The position numbers were made by a program, and so were the translations under genes. 12,924 bases of DNA from NCBI GenBank assembly GCA_017427625.1, contig JAFRSL010000238.1:1-12924 (forward strand), given 5' to 3'. Below, one piece after another: positions 415 to 8,766 of the stretch (position 1 is its first letter; every line of letters starts with the position of its first letter). Origin of the DNA: Synergistaceae bacterium (GTDB lineage: Bacteria; Synergistota; Synergistia; Synergistales; Aminobacteriaceae). Under the pieces are notes generated by a model, which was not told the origin of the DNA, did not search any database, and was given only the letters and a program-made list of their open reading frames with translations.

Positions 415-431
415 GGGAGGAATGTTATTTG
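415..431 (+). promoter_or_regulatory. Ribosome binding site that fixes a TTG start
   Basis: GGGAGG at 415-420 lies 8 nt before TTG at 429. The nearer ATG at 422 is only one nt from this site and opens a frame of just 18 codons in another phase, so the ATG is a decoy and the TTG is the probable initiator. Confidence 0.65.
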
Positions 432-2018
432 TGTCGTCGTCCGTCTCTTTTGCTGTCGATTTCTGTACTCCTTGTTAGCGCGTTAATCGTTACATTCGGC
501 GTTGTTGATGTCGAACTCGAATCGGGGTCGCATTTTGGTCTCGGTCTTCCCGCGCAAGTCCCGTTACTTTTCGCGGCAATCTTCGCGGCACTCGTCGGGG
601 CATTGTACCTCAGGCGTTCATGGTCTGAACTCGAAAAGGGAATGTCAGGAGCGATTCAGGTCTCAATTCAGGCAATCGTGATCCTCGTACTCGTTGGCTG
701 CCTCGTGGGTTCATGGATTCAGAGCGGCGTTGTCGCAACCATGATATATTACGGCCTCGAAGTAATGACACCGCGATATTTCTACCTCGCAAGTCTCATA
801 ATTTCCGTCGTCGTCGCAATAGCTACAGGCTGCTGCTGGACAACAAGCTCAACCGTCGGCGTTGCCCTGATCGGTATCAGCGCAGGTCTCGGACTTCCTT
901 TGCCGATAACCGCAGGCTTCGTGATTTCAGGGGCGTATTTCGGCGACAAGATTTCCCCGCTCTCGGATACAACTAACCTTGCCCCCGCAGTCGCAGGAAG
1001 TGAGCTTTTCGACCACGTTAAGGCAATGATGTGGTCAACAATCCCGACGCTTATCATTACGGCGATAATTGCGTTCATGATGGGCGACTCTGCTCAGGGT
1101 TCTGACGGAGGAAGAATCGCACTCATTCAGAGCATGATGCGCGCGGAGTTCAACATTTCGCTGTGGGCATTCATACCTCCGATGGTCATCATCGTTATGG
1201 CTTTCATGAAAATCCCCGCTATTCCCGGAATAGTCTCAGGAATTGCCGCAAGCATAGTGATTTCGCTCGTTCGAGGTTCAGGGGCGCATGAGGCTCTAGA
1301 AGTTCTTTTCTCCGGCTATGTTCCCGAACATCTAGGCGCGTTCGCGGAGGCGGCAACACCTGAAGCAGTCTCAGCTGTAACAGGAGCATTCACTCAGGCA
1401 TTCACGGCGGGAAGCCCGGCACTCAGCGTAACACCTGACGTTTTCGCAAAGGTCGGCGGACTTCTCACTCAGCTTTTCACGAGGGGCGGCATGACTTCTA
1501 TGTTGGAGACTATCTGCCTCATCGTCGTTGCGTTGTCGCTCGGCGGAATTATGGAGGTCTGCGGATTCCTTGACGTTATACTCGACGCACTCATGAGACA
1601 CGTTAAGAGCGTCGCGGGACTCATTGGGTCGGTTCTTGCGTCGGCGTTCATGGCTAACGTTTTCCTGTCCGAACAGTACCTCTCGATCATCGTACCCGGA
1701 AGAATGTTCAAGCGCGCTTTTGATGAGCGTACATGGCCGAACGGAAAGAAACTCGCGCCCGTAATGCTCTCGCGTTCACTTGAGGACTCCGGCACAATGA
1801 CGAGCGTTTTAGTCCCTTGGAACACTTGCGGCGTCTACGTGAGTTCGGTGCTTGGTGTTGCGACGCTGGATTACCTTCCGTATTGCTTCATGAACTGGCT
1901 GAATCCTCTCGTTGCGTTTGCGATGACTGCTCTCGGTCTCGGAATTATCTGGAAGAATGAGCCTCAGGAAGAAGGAATGTTCATTGCTGAGGTTGCTGAG
2001 GCTGCTCCATTGTTATAA
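429..2018 (+). CDS. nhaC: NhaC-family Na+/H+ antiporter
   Basis: A 529-residue polytopic inner-membrane protein. NhaC-family carriers exchange Na+ for protons; some relatives (MleN type) couple this to malate/lactate exchange, which I cannot exclude. Visible landmarks are the family motif GCCWTTSSTVGVAL at about residues 134-147, the loop GAYFGDKISPLSDTTNLAPA at 168-187 with polar residues suited to cation binding, and the C-terminal block LEDSGTMTSVLVPWNTCGVY at 451-470. About ten or more hydrophobic segments are spread over the chain. Compared with typical NhaC proteins of roughly 450-480 residues, there is an extra Ala/Thr/Gly-rich stretch at about 300-345, between two transmembrane blocks. 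The start is TTG at 429, supported by GGGAGG 8 nt upstream; the N-terminus then runs into the first hydrophobic helix as expected. The gene stands alone, closed by a hairpin terminator. The last codons are partly duplicated downstream (see the repeat entry). Confidence 0.9.
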   Translation: MCRRPSLLLSISVLLVSALIVTFGVVDVELESGSHFGLGLPAQVPLLFAAIFAALVGALYLRRSWSELEKGMSGAIQVSIQAIVILVLVGCLVGSWIQSGVVATMIYYGLEVMTPRYFYLASLIISVVVAIATGCCWTTSSTVGVALIGISAGLGLPLPITAGFVISGAYFGDKISPLSDTTNLAPAVAGSELFDHVKAMMWSTIPTLIITAIIAFMMGDSAQGSDGGRIALIQSMMRAEFNISLWAFIPPMVIIVMAFMKIPAIPGIVSGIAASIVISLVRGSGAHEALEVLFSGYVPEHLGAFAEAATPEAVSAVTGAFTQAFTAGSPALSVTPDVFAKVGGLLTQLFTRGGMTSMLETICLIVVALSLGGIMEVCGFLDVILDALMRHVKSVAGLIGSVLASAFMANVFLSEQYLSIIVPGRMFKRAFDERTWPNGKKLAPVMLSRSLEDSGTMTSVLVPWNTCGVYVSSVLGVATLDYLPYCFMNWLNPLVAFAMTALGLGIIWKNEPQEEGMFIAEVAEAAPLL

Positions 2019-2172: not shown

Positions 2173-2216
2173 ATCGCTGAGGTTGCTCCAGCTGTAGAGT
2201 AAGCGAAGATGTTTTG

Positions 2217-2244
2217 CCCCTGTCGAAAATGGCAGGGGTTTTTT
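2217..2244 (+). terminator. Strong Rho-independent terminator
   Basis: CCCCTGTC (2217-2224) pairs with GGCAGGGG (2231-2238), with one T-G wobble, around the loop GAAAAT, and is followed by six T residues (2239-2244). It would stop transcription that crosses the structured element, and it insulates the next operon. Confidence 0.8.
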
Positions 2245-2245
2245 G

Positions 2246-2254
2246 TGTTATAAT
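2246..2254 (+). promoter_or_regulatory. Extended -10 promoter for the RyR/TIR operon
   Basis: TGTTATAAT is a perfect extended -10 element (TG, one base, TATAAT at 2249-2254), placed directly after the T-run of the preceding terminator. No good -35 hexamer lies 16-18 bp upstream, since that space is the terminator stem. Transcription would start near 2261 with a leader of about 27 nt. Confidence 0.55.
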
Positions 2255-2287: not shown

Positions 2288-4219
2288 ATGATCTACGACA
2301 GTCATTTCATTAGTATTCTTGCAGCATGGGTTATTTCAATCGTTCTTTTTGCGACACTGATCATTTACTTAGCAAAGCACCCCCATAAAAGGACAATGCC
2401 TCTGAAAACAATTTTTGTCTTAATGTTTCTCGGAGGAACGGCCATGTATTGTGCTTTTCGTTACAGAGAGCTTATACAGGCCGTAAATTCTCAGTCAAAA
2501 AGTCATTATCTTGAATGGACAAATAGCGAAAACGCTCCATTGTTTTATATCCCTTACGTAATAGTTAGATCAGTAATAGATGTCGGATTGATGTTTTACG
2601 GACGCGGAGACAACAGCACATTTTACAGTATGCCTGAAGCGAAAAATCCGGCGGCTGTATTCCTGTTCTGGCTAATTCAGCTCATAGCATTTTATACGGC
2701 CGCAAGTGCGTTGCTTATACGTTTCGGGAATGACCTCCTGAGATGGATCAGGATAAAGACTTCAAACGTCTCAAATGTCGATTTAATCTTCGGGATAAAC
2801 TCGGACTCTCTTGCTTTAGGGCGTAACATAGCCGGTGCCAACCATAACATGATCATATACGTTGACAGCGTGTCTGAAGAAAGGTACGAGGCTTCAATAA
2901 GGGATCTCGGAGGCGTGGTGTATTTGAGCAAAGATGCACTCAAAGCGACTCCCTCATTCCTCCGTGAAATTCACATAAAGCCCGGAAAAACGACCTTCAC
3001 TCTTTATGCTCTGTCAACTGGGTACGACAAAAATATGCAGTACGCCCGGTCAGCTTCAGAAAGTCTCAAAGAGCTTGGCATACTTCCTGAACAGACTAAG
3101 CTCGTTCTTCTTGGTACAGAGGAATGGAAAGGAATGTACTTCTATTCCAGCGCGGATCATTACGGTTACGGGAGCGTCGAGTCATTTTATGATTTCGATT
3201 TTAGTGCCCGCCTCCTCATTCATGAATATCCTTTGTGCAACGCGATAAATTTCGACGAGAACGGGCTGGCAAAAGATGACATGACTGTCCTCATCGTCGG
3301 CTTTGGAAGGCTCGGCCATGAAGTTCTCAGGAAGGTCGTAGCTTCAGGACAATTTGAGGGGAGCAATTTCCATGTCGCTATATATGACCCTAATTTTGAG
3401 AATCGCGCGGGCTTCTTCATGTCGCAGTATAGTGCCATGTTCAAGAATTATAAAATTACGTTTGAGCCTCGTGAGGGAAGATGCGTTGAGATGTTCCAGT
3501 TCATTGAGGAAAATGCTGCAACATTGAAATACATCGTGATATGCCTCGATAACAGAGACACTGCCAGAGATATAGCCGTTCAGATGATAGACCGTCTCAA
3601 TACTTTGGGATACTCAAGGAACGTATACACCTGCGACTCAAAAGGCGTGAGATGCTACTCTCAGCACACTGAAGAATGTGAGTCCCACTGGCTCTATGAC
3701 TCTGATCTTATTTGTTCGGGTGAGCTTGACAGATACGCTATGGAACTTAACCACAGGTATGTCGGCGGAAAAGACGCAAAGGAAGACTGGAAGCAGTGCG
3801 CCTACTTTGATAGAATGAGCAGCCGTGCGAGCGTCGATTATCTTATTCCGTTGATACGAAAGATAAAGGCGGATAAAGGAAGTTTGACGCAGGAACAAAG
3901 GGAGAATCTGGCAAAGAGTGAGCATTTGAGGTGGTGTGCTTTTCATTACACATCAGGATTTGATGCAATGGGGAAAGACGAATTTGTTGAACGCATAAAC
4001 TCATACCTGGAAGAAATACGAGAGAACGGAAAGTCCCGTATCAGGATAACTAAGGATATTGATACCAGAAAGCATGTCTGCCTTGTTGACTGGGACGAAC
4101 TTGACGAGATTTCAGACCTCGAAAACTCTCTCACAGGCGGCAAAAGAGATTACAAGGAACTCGACAGAGCAAACATCGACATGATCATCGAACTCATAAA
4201 TGACGACGAGGAAAAGTAA
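2288..4219 (+). CDS. Membrane protein with TrkA-N-like Rossmann fold and C-terminal RyR domain
   Basis: A 643-residue protein. Hydrophobic helices lie at about 7-28, 41-58 and 122-145, with a weaker one near 84-104; the rest appears cytoplasmic. A first Rossmann-like strand (VDLIFGI, 164-170) lacks a proper GxGxxG and looks degenerate. A second (VLIVGFGRLGHEVL, 334-347) has an intact GFGRLG loop and a following acidic strand end (IYD, 365-367), as in TrkA-N/RCK nucleotide-binding domains. Residues about 541-633 match bacterial RyR repeats: LAKSEHLRWCAFHYTSGF, then RKHVCLVDWDEL, then DYKELDR, aligning with the RyR pattern of a helix with conserved W, an H-x-C-L-V segment and a final Y-x-x-x-D-R. 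RyR domains are named after ryanodine receptors; in bacteria their ligand is not known to me. The start ATG 2288 has GGAGG at 2272-2276; a TTG at 2243 would place the start inside the promoter. It is followed after 19 nt by the TIR gene. By eye it is richer in A and T than the flanking genes, hinting at transfer. Confidence 0.8.
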   Translation: MIYDSHFISILAAWVISIVLFATLIIYLAKHPHKRTMPLKTIFVLMFLGGTAMYCAFRYRELIQAVNSQSKSHYLEWTNSENAPLFYIPYVIVRSVIDVGLMFYGRGDNSTFYSMPEAKNPAAVFLFWLIQLIAFYTAASALLIRFGNDLLRWIRIKTSNVSNVDLIFGINSDSLALGRNIAGANHNMIIYVDSVSEERYEASIRDLGGVVYLSKDALKATPSFLREIHIKPGKTTFTLYALSTGYDKNMQYARSASESLKELGILPEQTKLVLLGTEEWKGMYFYSSADHYGYGSVESFYDFDFSARLLIHEYPLCNAINFDENGLAKDDMTVLIVGFGRLGHEVLRKVVASGQFEGSNFHVAIYDPNFENRAGFFMSQYSAMFKNYKITFEPREGRCVEMFQFIEENAATLKYIVICLDNRDTARDIAVQMIDRLNTLGYSRNVYTCDSKGVRCYSQHTEECESHWLYDSDLICSGELDRYAMELNHRYVGGKDAKEDWKQCAYFDRMSSRASVDYLIPLIRKIKADKGSLTQEQRENLAKSEHLRWCAFHYTSGFDAMGKDEFVERINSYLEEIRENGKSRIRITKDIDTRKHVCLVDWDELDEISDLENSLTGGKRDYKELDRANIDMIIELINDDEEK

Positions 4220-4238
4220 AACGGAGAATCATCTGCAC

Positions 4239-5525
4239 ATGGAAACAGAAACAAGTTTCAAGTATTACGCTTTTATCAGCTACAGCCATAAGGACCAAGA
4301 AATAGCGCATAAACTTCAGAAGCATCTTGAGAAATATCATTTATCTTCCTCACTGAAGAAATCGAATCCTGGCCTCCCTAAAAAGCTGAGTCCGATATTC
4401 ATAGATACTTCCGACCTTATAGGCAAAGGGACTCTGAAATCAGCTCTTCAGGAAAATCTCGATAACTCAAATTATCTTATTGTGATCTGTTCGCCAAACA
4501 GTGCAAAGTCGCCGTATGTGAATGATGAGGTCGAATATTTCGTCAAGGCAGGCCGTGTCGAGCATATAATACCGCTGATCATTGACGGTGCCCCGCATTC
4601 AAACGATCCTGAGCTTGAATGTTTCCCGCCGGCACTTCTCGCGCTTCCCCGTGAGAATGAACTTCTAGGGATAGACTTGAAGAAATATGGCTCACACGAA
4701 GCGTTTATCAGAGTTATCGCTACACTTCTCAGGCTTGACATCAATTATTTCGTGTCAAGAGACGCAAGAGAAAGAAAGCGGAAACTCTTCTTATTTGTAT
4801 CGATGCTTATGGCTCTTCTTATAGCTTCAATAATAATGAGGCCCAAGCCTTATGATGAAGTTTTGGCGGACAAAGTAATGGAGAGCTCTCTGTCTGGTTA
4901 TGTCAGAGTCGGAAGGCAGTGGAAAAATTTTCGGGACCTCGTTTACTGCGCGGCAAATAATCCTGAGAATTTTAACCAGCAGTTGAAGATCTATAAGGAT
5001 CATTTTTCAACTGAGGAAGCGGCACGGACGAAAGAGCTTCTTCAATATTTGTATGACATGATGAAGTCGGGAAGCGTCATGCCTTGGTCTGGAAAGCCCA
5101 TAGCTCAGAGGGTTTGTGCTGAACTTATTGCGCTTTACGGAAACCGTGAAATTCAGTACAAGTTCTTTGCCTCCGTGCTTGAGTTTACAATGAATGATCT
5201 TGAGACTCGGCGTGATTACGGTTCTCAATATATTGGGCTTTTGATGGAAATTCTTGAACTTGACGCTAACATCGCATCGACGCTTTTCCAGATTGTATGT
5301 GTACCGCATCTGACAGGAAAGTATGCTGATAATTCAGCGACAGCCCAGAAATTTGCGGCTCTGCTTTCATCAGTTCCAGAACAGAATGAGCATCTTCACA
5401 GTGAGAATGCAAAAAACGCCGATGAACATCTAGTGCTCTTTAAGGAAGAAAGGGGCGACTGTCTCATGAGATTAAATTCATGCGGTGTCTTCAATGCCTA
5501 TTCCTCACAAATAAGAGGAAAATAG
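4239..5525 (+). CDS. TIR-domain protein with one transmembrane helix
   Basis: A 428-residue protein. Residues 7-170 form a TIR domain: YYAFISYSHKD (9-19) is strand A with box 1, PIFIDTSDL (52-60) is the BB-loop region, and NYLIVICSPNSAKSPYVNDE (78-97) leads into helix D, followed by IIPLIIDG. Many bacterial TIR domains cleave NAD+; Glu97 in SPYVNDE aligns with the catalytic glutamate of SARM1-type TIRs (pattern WVxxE, here with Tyr for Trp), so activity is plausible but not shown. After a basic stretch (RERKRK, about 177-182) there is one transmembrane helix, 183-200. The remaining 228 residues are helical and soluble in look; I do not recognise a domain, and they have no clear repeats. The start ATG 4239 has GGAG at 4223-4226; an upstream in-frame ATG at 4200 would overlap the RyR gene by 20 nt and lacks a ribosome binding site. 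It is almost certainly co-transcribed with the RyR gene. Defence or signalling is inferred from domains and pairing. Confidence 0.85.
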   Translation: METETSFKYYAFISYSHKDQEIAHKLQKHLEKYHLSSSLKKSNPGLPKKLSPIFIDTSDLIGKGTLKSALQENLDNSNYLIVICSPNSAKSPYVNDEVEYFVKAGRVEHIIPLIIDGAPHSNDPELECFPPALLALPRENELLGIDLKKYGSHEAFIRVIATLLRLDINYFVSRDARERKRKLFLFVSMLMALLIASIIMRPKPYDEVLADKVMESSLSGYVRVGRQWKNFRDLVYCAANNPENFNQQLKIYKDHFSTEEAARTKELLQYLYDMMKSGSVMPWSGKPIAQRVCAELIALYGNREIQYKFFASVLEFTMNDLETRRDYGSQYIGLLMEILELDANIASTLFQIVCVPHLTGKYADNSATAQKFAALLSSVPEQNEHLHSENAKNADEHLVLFKEERGDCLMRLNSCGVFNAYSSQIRGK

Positions 5526-5532
5526 ACAAAGA

Positions 5533-5566
5533 GGGCGGAGCAGTTCGAGCTAAAATATATCCGCCC
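5533..5566 (-). terminator. Candidate terminator between convergent genes
   Basis: GGGCGGA (5533-5539) and TCCGCCC (5560-5566) form a perfect 7-bp stem around a 20-nt loop. Read on the minus strand it is followed by TCTTTGTCTATTTT, so it would mainly end the acetyltransferase operon; read on the plus strand no T-run follows. The stem overlaps the last codons of the minus-strand gene, whose stop lies in the loop. The loop is large, so confidence is moderate. Confidence 0.45.
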
Positions 5567-6296
5567 TTGTCGAGTAAACCTCAATCGCTCCCAAGTCCTC
5601 AAAGCCGAACGCACTATAGAAAGGAACTCCCGACGGCGTGGCCTGAAGAACGATCTTCCTTCCCCCTGAGAGACGGCATATCTCGCTCATCATTGAGGCA
5701 GCGACTCCCTTCCTCCGAAATTCCGGCTTGGTCGCAAAATAGTACACCCCCATCAATTCCGCCTCGTCTGTAACAAGAAAAGCCCCCGCATCATGGCCGT
5801 CAATCTCAGCGATATACATCGACATGCTTTCATCGCTGCTGAATGCTTTGACAAGGGCTAGATATTCCGCAGAAGGCTCACCCTCGCCGTACTCGAACGC
5901 TGACCACTCACAATTTGCCCACTGTACGAATGTCTCACGTGTTACAGCTCTCATTTTCACGGAAGGATTCACTCGGTCTCTCACTGCATGGGTAGGCTCA
6001 AGGCTCATTGCCTCAAGATGCCCCGCGTGAAGAAGCCCCGCAGCCTCCAATATGTTGTTACCTCCGTCGTAAACTGGCCACATGAATGTCTCTTTGCGTC
6101 GGCCGAAGAATGTCGTCGCCCTTTTCACTGTCTCAATGTCTCTTACGGTCTCGGGATAATATACCCAGTTCTCAAACTCGTTGTTCGTCGAAACGCAGAA
6201 GCCCCCGTTATTCCCAAGCGCAATACTCTCACTCACTGGAAGATTTCTCAGGTGTTCGGCAAAAAATCTCAGGTCCTCCCAAACATCACTCATCAT
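5550..6296 (-). CDS. GNAT-family N-acetyltransferase
   Basis: A 248-residue cytoplasmic enzyme predicted to move an acetyl group from acetyl-CoA to an amine; the substrate is unknown. The GNAT fold occupies about residues 112-240. Motif A is visible as VYYFATKPEFRRKGVAASMM (184-203), where RRKGVA is the pyrophosphate-binding loop of the Q/R-x-x-G-x-A type, and PFYSAFGFEDLG (225-236) is the usual C-terminal strand (YxxxGF). The first 110 residues form an extra N-terminal domain with several aromatic residues, common in GNAT proteins that carry a degenerate first repeat. The start ATG 6296 is preceded by GAGGAGG with about 9 nt spacing, located inside the end of the SbcC-like gene; the reading frame overlaps that gene by 11 nt, suggesting translational coupling. 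A TTG at 6314 lies within the binding site itself and is unlikely. It is the last gene of its operon. Confidence 0.85.
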   Translation of the reverse strand: MMSDVWEDLRFFAEHLRNLPVSESIALGNNGGFCVSTNNEFENWVYYPETVRDIETVKRATTFFGRRKETFMWPVYDGGNNILEAAGLLHAGHLEAMSLEPTHAVRDRVNPSVKMRAVTRETFVQWANCEWSAFEYGEGEPSAEYLALVKAFSSDESMSMYIAEIDGHDAGAFLVTDEAELMGVYYFATKPEFRRKGVAASMMSEICRLSGGRKIVLQATPSGVPFYSAFGFEDLGAIEVYSTRADIF

Positions 6297-8766
6297 CACT
6301 GAATACCTCCTCAAGTCCGCACGTCAGCATCAAGTCCTTAAGCTCCGGGATAATTTCACCGTTAATCTTATCGCGGTATGCCGACGACTCCGAGTCATCT
6401 TCGCCCTCGTTCCTCATCGCAGCTTTAAGACTCGCAATCATGTCCATAATCTCATCATTAGTCCGGCTAAGTCCGTCAGATTGAAGCTCCAGTATCTTCG
6501 CACGTGTGTTCTCGCGTTCAGCCTTCAAGTCCAAATCCGCCTGCGTAAGTTCCCTGAGGCGGTTCTGAATATCGCGCCTCTCGTCCGAAGTAAGACATGC
6601 CGCCGCGTAATCGTTCTCGTTCCTGAAACCAAGCGCAAGAAGCCTCTTGTTGAAGTTTATCTCATGACGCTGTAACTCCTCACGTCCCTTTGCAGCCTCC
6701 GTCTCAAGTGCGTGTATCTCAGTCTGAATCTTCTCAAGTTCCTGAGATTTCGCGTTCTTGTCCTCACGCCTCTCGTTCAACTGTGAGCGAAGTGCCTCAA
6801 CGTCAGCATTCATTCTCGACATCTCTTCATCAGGCTTCATCGACGCAAAAAGTATTATCCTCTGCTGCTGTATGCTGTCCCTCTCAGCCTCAACTGTCTT
6901 CACTCGCTGGGAAGACTCATCACGTTTCACACGGAGGGACTCGCGTTCCTTCTTGAGGGCGGTCATCTTTGTGTTTGCTACTGAGAGTTCGCGTTCAAGT
7001 TCCTCATACCGCAGTGAACCTTCCTGCCAATCCTTCATTCTCTTCGTTAGTGCCTCGACAACCTCAGCAGGGTTCTTGTCGGGAAGCGTCTTGTATCCGT
7101 ACATCGTAATCTGTGAGTTAAGCTCGCGTTTAAGGCTTGTTACTATCTCGGCCTGAGTCTTAGTCTCCGTGTCTAACTGCTCCTCCTCGATGCGGGCATT
7201 TTGCAGGGCGAACATTGCATCTTGATGAATGCGGGTAACTTCCTCCCTTGTCTCACGAATCTTGTCGAGTTCGTCCTGTGCTGCCTTCATGTCGCGTTCG
7301 GCTGTCTCAGCTGTGTCGGTGGCGTTCCGTGCGAGCTGTAATGTGTCGCGTGTCCTCTGGCGTTCCCTGTCAATCTCCTCGAACGGTGATATTCCTGTGC
7401 TTATCTTGAGACCGAGAAGTGAGACCTTTGACGATATTTCAGCCGTGATCTCGTTTATCTGCTTGCGTAGTTCACTTTCATCTTTGCCGACTGCTGAAAT
7501 CTCCTCGCTTAGTTTTCCGGCTTTTGTCTGACGTGAGGCCAAAGCGTCCCGGAGTTCGTCGAGTTCCTTCTGCGTGTCAAGAAGCTGTTGGTGTACTTCA
7601 TCAGGATTCGGGATCGTCGTTCCGGAAGTGTATGGGTGAGTCATTGAGCCGCAAAGTGGGCAAGGTGCACCGTCCTGCAATAGCTCACGTACAGCGTCAA
7701 GGTCTTCAATTCGACGGAGGAGTGCCGCGCGCTTTTCGAGGCGTTCTGCTTCCAACTGAAGCTCGTGAAGTTTCCCTGACTGCTCTACGTCCCTTATGTT
7801 GAGGGTACGTGTCTCCTGCTGAATGCGCAGGCGTATAACCTGAAAGTGCTTCAGCTTCTCTTCAAGGCTCCGAACTTCCTGAAACCTCTTATAGAGTTCG
7901 TCAAGGTCAGCGAGCCTCTTAATGTTCTTGTCACAGATCTCACGCCACTCGGTTATCGTCTTGCCCTTCAGCGTCCCCTCAAAGAATGCCCGCGCCCTCG
8001 TAAAATTCTTCTCGATAACGGCGTAACGGTGATTAACGTCCGAGAACATTGCCGACCTGTCATTGAGTACGCTCTGAGCCTGAAGCTTCCTCTGAATTGC
8101 TTTCGACCACGCGGCTTTGAGTGAGGTGTGCTTGTCGTCAGCCTGCTCGTACATCGCAAAGCATTTCTGAATCCCTGAGAGTCCAGTCTGAAGCTTCTCA
8201 TCAATGGAATGCTGCTGCAAAAACTTTCGTGCCTCACGCAATGCAACCTCGACACGCTCTAATGATACCTGCTCAGTCTCAGCCTTTGCCGAACACTCAC
8301 GGTATTGACGCTCCGATTCCTCGTACTCATTCCGTGCCTGAACAACTGCATCCTGCCTGTCCGTAATCTGAACATCAAGAGCCTTCACGCGCTGTATGAG
8401 GTTGGACATCTTTGACTGTTCCGCGAGCTTATCACGATATTCGGCCTCAATGAGAGTGAGTGCTTCGTCTGCATTCTGGACGGCGTTACGTGCTTCCGTC
8501 AAGTCATCACGGAGAGCTGCCTGCTTTATCTGGCTCTGTTCGCGCGACTGCCTCAAGTCCTTTATGGCCTCGTATTCCTCGCCGAGTTCAAGGGCTTTTC
8601 CTCCGAGTTCGAGTCTCTGCTTTGACGGAACGAAGAGAGCTGTCTTTCGGTCAAGGTCTATGCGTTTAGCGTCCAAGTCTTTGAGGAGTTCCTGCTGCCG
8701 AAGCTCCTCTGCCCTGTGCTGAAGTACCCTCCGTAACTCCTCGAATTGTCCTAGAATTTCCTGCAT
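6286..8766 (-). CDS. SbcC-like coiled-coil and zinc-hook protein lacking ATPase heads
   Basis: An 826-residue protein, charged and rich in Glu, Arg, Gln and Leu, with heptad-like coiled coil over nearly its whole length. At its centre, GAPCPLCGSMTHPY (about 366-379) is the zinc hook (CxxC) of SbcC/Rad50 proteins, by which two coiled coils are joined through one zinc ion. SbcC normally has about 1000-1200 residues: an N-terminal Walker A half, a coiled-coil arm, the hook, the return arm and a C-terminal Walker B/signature half. Here the first residue already lies in the arm and the last is before the expected C-terminal half; no GxxxxGK[ST], ABC signature or Walker B is visible. GTLKGKT (264-270) resembles a P-loop but has one residue too few. 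The frame upstream is occupied by tilS, so no head was missed in the window. The start ATG 8766 follows GAGGGGTGA; the tilS stop is 6 nt upstream. Without heads it cannot act as a DNA-processing ATPase alone; a structural or tethering role, or action with a separate full SbcC, is inference. Confidence 0.75.
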   Translation of the reverse strand: MQEILGQFEELRRVLQHRAEELRQQELLKDLDAKRIDLDRKTALFVPSKQRLELGGKALELGEEYEAIKDLRQSREQSQIKQAALRDDLTEARNAVQNADEALTLIEAEYRDKLAEQSKMSNLIQRVKALDVQITDRQDAVVQARNEYEESERQYRECSAKAETEQVSLERVEVALREARKFLQQHSIDEKLQTGLSGIQKCFAMYEQADDKHTSLKAAWSKAIQRKLQAQSVLNDRSAMFSDVNHRYAVIEKNFTRARAFFEGTLKGKTITEWREICDKNIKRLADLDELYKRFQEVRSLEEKLKHFQVIRLRIQQETRTLNIRDVEQSGKLHELQLEAERLEKRAALLRRIEDLDAVRELLQDGAPCPLCGSMTHPYTSGTTIPNPDEVHQQLLDTQKELDELRDALASRQTKAGKLSEEISAVGKDESELRKQINEITAEISSKVSLLGLKISTGISPFEEIDRERQRTRDTLQLARNATDTAETAERDMKAAQDELDKIRETREEVTRIHQDAMFALQNARIEEEQLDTETKTQAEIVTSLKRELNSQITMYGYKTLPDKNPAEVVEALTKRMKDWQEGSLRYEELERELSVANTKMTALKKERESLRVKRDESSQRVKTVEAERDSIQQQRIILFASMKPDEEMSRMNADVEALRSQLNERREDKNAKSQELEKIQTEIHALETEAAKGREELQRHEINFNKRLLALGFRNENDYAAACLTSDERRDIQNRLRELTQADLDLKAERENTRAKILELQSDGLSRTNDEIMDMIASLKAAMRNEGEDDSESSAYRDKINGEIIPELKDLMLTCGLEEVFSDDE

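Follow-up and report, generated by a model that had tools for sequence, protein, structure and literature searches.

We describe a pair of adjacent genes from a Synergistaceae bacterium, encoding a membrane protein predicted to carry two RCK domains and a RyR-like domain (A) and a TIR protein (B). On balance, the pair is probably an accessory operon for immune-type signalling that operates in the manner of Thoeris, with B as the sensor-enzyme and A as the receiver-effector. That A and B act as one system, we hold with high confidence. The two genes lie in a window of 12,924 nt, which is the whole of contig C221, in a fragmented genome of 1.9 Mb (304 contigs, completeness 80.82).

The gene pair and its chromosomal site

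Gene A extends on the + strand from an ATG at 2288 to a stop at 4219 (2288..4219, 643 aa; ORF listing), and gene B follows on the same strand from an ATG at 4239 to a stop at 5525 (4239..5525, 428 aa; ORF listing and Pfam). With these starts the genes are 19 nt apart, just as the original prediction had it; the ORF lister itself prefers starts further upstream (TTG 2243 for A and ATG 4200 for B). An nhaC-type antiporter gene (429..2018, + strand) is located to the left of A, and a GNAT acetyltransferase gene (5550..6314, - strand) to the right of B. Besides these, the window encodes TilS, a lytic transglycosylase and a coiled-coil protein that weakly resembles Rad50/SMC, and no match was found within it in Rfam (gathering cut-off) and tRNA searches. 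The neighbours of A-B look ordinary, and a defence-island setting was not seen in the window. The original proposal of a two-gene TIR plus TrkA-N/RyR system is supported in its conserved pairing, accessory distribution and catalytic-type glutamate (see below).

The pair had also been credited with its own promoter and an insulating terminator. A strong hairpin is present left of A (2216..2239, + strand; 10 pairs, six of them G-C), although the terminator scan gave eight terminator-like sites in the window against 12.5 expected in shuffles, so that only the strength of this hairpin speaks for it. However, a near-identical hairpin lies between nhaC and GNAT in a relative (L074) in which A-B is absent from the site, which suggests that the terminator probably belongs to the upstream nhaC rather than to A-B. 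An extended -10 promoter-like sequence (TGTTATAAT, 2246..2254, + strand) can be read by eye from the consensus only and is absent from the sites given by the signal scan of the window.

A homolog of the GNAT gene is found in 36 of the 43 genomes of the genus. We examined 20 GNAT loci, one of them the window itself, and used the other 19 to compare the site. In 11 of them nhaC lies beside GNAT within the flank; the other eight have no nhaC in the flank, some being at contig ends. The gap between nhaC and GNAT (aligned ends) is 62-116 nt in nine loci, 220 nt in L082 and 575 nt in L073, where it contains another small ORF. Five of the 11 (G001, G022, G030, G032, G096) have no A-B at the nhaC/GNAT site and carry A elsewhere. 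This comparison indicates that A-B is accessory and was gained at a chromosomal site. With A in 15 same-genus genomes and the nhaC/GNAT site of relatives without the pair, the distribution is not the housekeeping one that could have contradicted the original prediction. Given the same patchy presence and pair-free site, a role in housekeeping ion uptake is not preferred.

Predicted architecture of the two proteins

According to an AlphaFold2 model (pLDDT 86; the structure models of A are monomers only), A consists, from N to C terminus, of a membrane segment, RCK1, RCK2 and a RyR-like domain. The membrane segment (residues 4-158; 2297..2761, + strand) has four hydrophobic helices by the model and by hydropathy (peaks at residues 8-26, 39-57, 85-103 and 118-136), in line with the membrane helices originally noted in the first gene; a TVGYG-type selectivity filter was not found between the last two of them (residues 60-125). 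In the model, the last helix runs directly into RCK1 (residues 162-320; 2771..3247, + strand), which structurally matches GsuK, TrkA and the gating rings of CASTOR/DMI1. RCK2 (residues 330-480; 3275..3727, + strand) was recognised by fold search and contains GFGRLG at 338-343 and Asp367; the boundaries of both domains are approximate. A is thus predicted to carry tandem RCK Rossmann domains behind its last membrane helix. The earlier assignment as TrkA-N holds for this predicted fold but not for Pfam, in which TrkA_N gave no direct match in A and matched two of 43 aligned members (best E 0.05). Searches of the PDB gave 10 matches with the sequence of A (E 0.61-1.2) and six with its profile (E 0.078-0.44), all taken as chance or generic Rossmann matches.

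The Rossmann loop is intact, as had been claimed: glycines 338, 340 and 343 are kept in 106, 105 and 106 of 106 homologs, a set made up of the Butyrivibrio and L058 proteins and of those 104 among the 120 listed A relatives that reach 560 aa. Asp367 is kept in 94 of them. As GsuK is activated by ADP and NAD+ (PMC3510474), RCK2 may be a second nucleotide site.

The C-terminal domain (residues 485-643; 3740..4216, + strand) is RyR Repeat12-like by predicted fold, profile match and conservation. It had been called a clear RyR repeat, and by sequence it is not clear: Pfam RyR (PF02026) has no match in A, and five of 43 aligned members match it weakly (best E 0.015). However, fold comparison of the predicted structure finds the R12 fold, and the A profile aligns over 430 columns with the RCK-RyR family of G084, whose RyR domain exceeds the Pfam cut-off. 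The match of the A profile to four short RyR proteins was weak.

Phage RyR R12 domains are described to bind 2'/3'cADPR, signals made by TIR proteins, and the ligand contacts of RyDEP are given as H75, W78, H100 and D117 (PMC13232231, a 2026 preprint). These contacts were placed on H546, W549, H596 and D626 of A by motif and spacing only. H-x-x-W is common to both proteins; H and D are 17 residues apart in both RyDEP and the RyR chimera but 30 apart in A, the longer distance being ascribed to an insertion in A. The four presumed residues are kept in 104, 104, 100 and 100 of the 106 homologs, and in conservation H546 and W549 rank in the top tenth, H596 and D626 in the top fifth, of all A positions. 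Judged by this placement, A appears to keep all four RyR ligand residues. Two alternatives had been offered originally, in one of which A senses and B acts; the other, in which the RyR or TrkA-N domain of A binds the TIR product, is the better one in view of these residues and of the 2'/3'cADPR binding by phage R12 domains (PMC13232231).

The same domain might instead serve as an off-switch that sequesters or hydrolyses the TIR product and curbs leaky signalling, the effector being another protein. Indeed, RyDEP of phage DyoEdafos is reported to hydrolyse 2'/3'cADPR and sponge-type homologs to bind them tightly (PMC13232231), and A has both of the positions that are catalytic in RyDEP (H546, D626). 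However, of the RyDEP proteins assayed in that preprint a single one is described to hydrolyse the signals, no third gene is common to the loci seen, and the membrane segment and tandem RCK ring would be left without a role; we therefore consider an off-switch very improbable.

The TIR domain of B (residues 12-148; 4272..4682, + strand) matches both TIR_2 (E 1.6e-15) and ThsB_TIR (E 4.5e-11) above the cut-off. In the alignment, Glu97 (codon 4527-4529) takes the Y/W-x-x-x-E position, so the TIR domain with a glutamate at the catalytic position was correctly recognised, and so was the membrane anchor of B, a single TM helix seen by hydropathy (residues 182-200; 4782..4838, + strand). The remaining C-terminal part (residues 201-428; 4839..5522, + strand), presumably the sensor part, has no Pfam match at E <= 1, and residues 191-428 recur in L056 only, among the A-linked loci searched. 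TIR proteins of the B type abound: of 7,997 candidates that were scored, 2,418 proteins reached E <= 0.001. By sequence, B has no PDB match at E <= 0.1; among the PADLOC models, which are without curated cut-off, the best ThsB model gave E 1.3e-5 and the best overall, SAVED_TIR, 9.6e-7.

Recurrence of the pair and exchange of the TIR partner

A has 140 homologs at E <= 0.001, and its profile matches 16 of the 185 genomes of the phylum, namely 15 from the same genus (43 genomes, taken as lying within the 185) and the distant G149. The 3' side of A is visible in 13 same-genus loci (the window, G012, G017, G024, G029, G022 C281, G022 C296, G032, G092, G093, G030, G018, G096). In 10 of them, a TIR-type gene follows directly downstream on the same strand (nine TIR_2 and, in G022 C296, one DUF4062), at a distance between a short overlap and about 40 nt; the partner in G092 is broken into two frames. 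No TIR-type gene follows A in the other three, i.e., in G096, with A in three frames, in G030, with A intact, and in G018, where the RyR-like end of A is damaged (Tyr replaces the first His, and the region around the second His is absent). Left out of the 13 were G034, G001 and G015, in which A runs off the contig (with no TIR start within 282 bases after A in G034), and G149, in which an ABC-type gene is next.

TIR_2 matches occur in 19 of the 43 genus genomes. Both A and TIR_2 are present in 13, TIR_2 only in six, A only in two (G018, G015) and neither in 22 (Fisher p 5.1e-5, uncorrected for shared ancestry). Five genomes have A and just one TIR_2 match, which is located beside A in four of them (G000, G012, G017, G024) and on another contig in G034.

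Among 72,556 plasmid records (tblastn), A had one match, on plasmid pNP243 of Butyrivibrio fibrisolvens (Bacillota, bovine rumen), with 37.6% identity over 85%. A TIR gene is located there just upstream of the A relative, on the same strand and at a distance of 320 nt, so that a second phylum shows the pairing, in reverse order. Its product matches TIR_2 (E 8.5e-11), has weak beta-propeller matches and possesses the TIR Glu. Furthermore, four of the 120 listed A homologs (P0104, P0106, P0108, P0109) are TIR-A fusions, with an N-terminal TIR domain followed by RCK-RCK-RyR, in which a TIR-TM part stands for most of the membrane part of A. In L030 (P0125), two TIR domains flank a stretch like the last membrane helix of A. 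The listed A and B homologs have 11 apparent shared sources, four being the fusions themselves and seven others; this is a hint only, with no chance estimate. No match to A was found in the genome-contig collection or in phages and viral contigs, and the RCK-RyR family of G084 was found in that collection in the G084 record only. The conserved pairing in other genomes on which the original prediction depended is thus seen in the TIR or DUF4062 genes after A in 10 of the 13 informative loci, in the fusions and on the Butyrivibrio plasmid. That B is an unrelated NADase next to A by chance is rejected, given these same fusions, the repeated pairing and its occurrence on a plasmid of another phylum.

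The A-adjacent partners differ in their C-terminal parts. These contain TPR and 22 Sel1 stretches in L020, Sel1 in L021, L025 and L055, TPR-S and Sel1 in L022, NB-ARC/AAA and TPR in L024, and TPR with a weak AAA match behind DUF4062 in L028; in the window, L018 and L056, Pfam names no C-terminal domain. The TIR Glu is present in all eight aligned A-adjacent TIR partners (the split L055 partner was left out), and the partners match PADLOC ThsB, SAVED_TIR, PDC-S66 and similar TIR models weakly only. A fixed receiver A with changing partners is expected if B-type proteins detect different triggers. An unchanging receiver served by interchangeable TIR sensors would amount to a modular immune layout, by analogy with plant NLR networks. 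As no TM is predicted in three A-adjacent partners (L024, L025, L028), the membrane anchor of B is not essential to the system.

With the roles reversed, A would track the membrane or nucleotide state via its RCK domains and free the NADase of B, leading to NAD+ depletion, and the fusions would be one-chain versions of this sensor and killer. A membrane anchor is found in B and most partners as well as in A, the fusions put TIR directly onto the RCK/RyR part, and the RCK rings of GsuK are described to sense NAD+/ADP (PMC3510474). We nevertheless regard this arrangement as unlikely, since the variable repeat-rich parts sit on the TIR partner and not on A, three partners are without TM, and the RyR pocket is better explained as a reader of the TIR product.

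A pair outside defence, in which a TIR scaffold or NAD+ enzyme tunes an ion channel to the nutrient or redox state, seems improbable as well. It would fit the ordinary neighbours in the window, the common control of K+ or Ca2+ transport by RCK proteins and the use of such a ring by CASTOR in symbiosis signalling (PMC6697748), but not the patchy presence (15 same-genus genomes) at differing chromosomal sites, the swapped TIR partners or the plasmid carriage; moreover, the related RCK-RyR gene of G084 overlaps the start of JetA in a Wadjet locus.

Proposed signalling and relation to known systems

In the preferred reading, with B as sensor-enzyme and A as receiver-effector, an infection cue would act on the variable C-terminal part of B, and its TIR domain would, judging from the TIR family and Glu97, convert NAD+ to an ADP-ribose-type messenger. 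Fold and residues suggest that this messenger would bind the RyR-like pocket of A; RCK2 may add NAD+/ADP sensing. As in RCK channels, the gating ring of A could then move the membrane helices and open a pore, and ion leak or depolarisation would halt the infected cell, with both ring assembly and a phage trigger presumed. More specifically, and more tentatively, A may be an ion channel in which a TIR-made messenger of the cyclic-ADP-ribose type controls gating via the Repeat12-like pocket, i.e., part of a two-gene NADase-messenger-channel circuit with exchangeable TIR-side infection sensors.

TM-macro Thoeris likewise combines a TIR protein with a membrane effector that has a cytosolic nucleotide-binding domain and is activated by the TIR product; however, its ThsA is described as a macro domain with a short TM part (PMC11204291), whereas A combines about four TM helices with two RCK domains and a RyR-like domain. 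SIR2-SLOG Thoeris shares the TIR enzyme and a receiver, and its signals are cADPR isomers of the kind bound by phage RyR proteins (PMC11204291, PMC13232231), but A is without SIR2/SLOG (no macro, SIR2 or SLOG match in Pfam at E <= 1). No PADLOC model matches A. By the features tested, A-B is of neither the SIR2-SLOG nor the TM-macro type, and probably works like Thoeris with a new receiver-effector. Phage RyDEP and sponge-type RyR proteins share the R12-type domain and the presumed ligand residues with A, but are described as single-domain or short counter-defence proteins (PMC13232231), whereas the domain of A forms part of a cellular RCK membrane protein whose gene adjoins a TIR gene. The GsuK/MthK K+ channels resemble A in the last membrane helix leading into an RCK ring and in the Rossmann domains that bind nucleotides (ADP and NAD+ open GsuK; PMC3510474), but A lacks the TVGYG filter and has the additional RyR-like domain and a TIR partner. 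CASTOR/DMI1 are plant Ca2+ channels, for which the cited part of PMC6697748 mentions no RyR-like domain. The RCK-RyR family of G084 (A2: L064, P0238-P0245) has two Rossmann domains and then RyR in the same order, aligned over the 430 columns; it differs in its shorter membrane part, its RyR above the Pfam cut-off and its Wadjet locus, where no TIR gene was recognised among the ORFs listed. Animal ryanodine receptors, to which cADPR has long been linked (PMC13232231), are also membrane proteins with an R12 pocket, a functional parallel only.

Among the titles and abstract starts listed for open-licence PMC text, none describes an A-B-like pair; the preprint of Yirmiya et al. 2025 (10.64898/2025.12.03.692087) may already cover this or a similar type. 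If the proposal is true, it would add an ion-channel-type effector to TIR immunity and give a cellular RyR-like domain a sensing role, as opposed to the decoys and hydrolase described for phages (PMC13232231). It has long been asked whether the RyR Repeat12 pocket is a direct target of cADPR-type messengers, and the pair would then also offer a small model for studying this.

Related proteins and a repeat outside the A-B arrangement

The partnerless copies of A, the predicted membrane protein with two RCK domains and a RyR-like end, in two genomes of the same genus (G030 and G096; loci L026 and L057, respectively) are situated amid similar ABC-transporter ORFs; in G096, the A gene is split into three frames. 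One 360-aa homolog of A (P0118) possesses neither RCK domain, its RyR-like end being joined directly to the membrane part. To the left of the A-B pair, the window itself contains a dispersed intergenic repeat with inverted ends (2076-2182), which is present in 4 of the 43 genomes of the genus (the window's own genome has seven matches, G020 has 12, G014 nine and G097 one).

RyR genes in other surroundings

Short stand-alone RyR proteins of 91-94 aa are encoded at four loci (L065, 88-369; L066, 7542-7817; L067, 6980-7255; L068, 6361-6645). In the last three, the RyR gene follows a very long ORF and an ORF of 235-237 aa, the former resembling a kinase by eye and the latter a PP2C phosphatase. 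Furthermore, in the same-family genome G084, the gene for a 624-aa RCK-RyR membrane protein (L064, 7947-9821) overlaps the start of JetA (6491-7954) in a Wadjet-type locus, with JetC located downstream.

Clustered, doubled and fused TIR genes

At one locus (L024, 1850-14389), A is surrounded by a cluster of TIR genes comprising its partner, a divergent TIR-Sel1 gene and a TIR-NB-ARC-TPR gene; a fourth ORF resembles a TIR gene by eye, but its only Pfam match is to Sel1. For the TIR-A fusion P0104, one of four such single-chain proteins among the 120 listed homologs of A, and for an A protein (P0069), the listed length of the longest contig is identical (7,040), so that this fusion could be acting as TIR partner to P0069. 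Another protein (L030, 6485-8197; also P0125) carries two TIR domains, between which sits a segment resembling the last membrane helix of A; it may be what is left of a former fusion between TIR and A.
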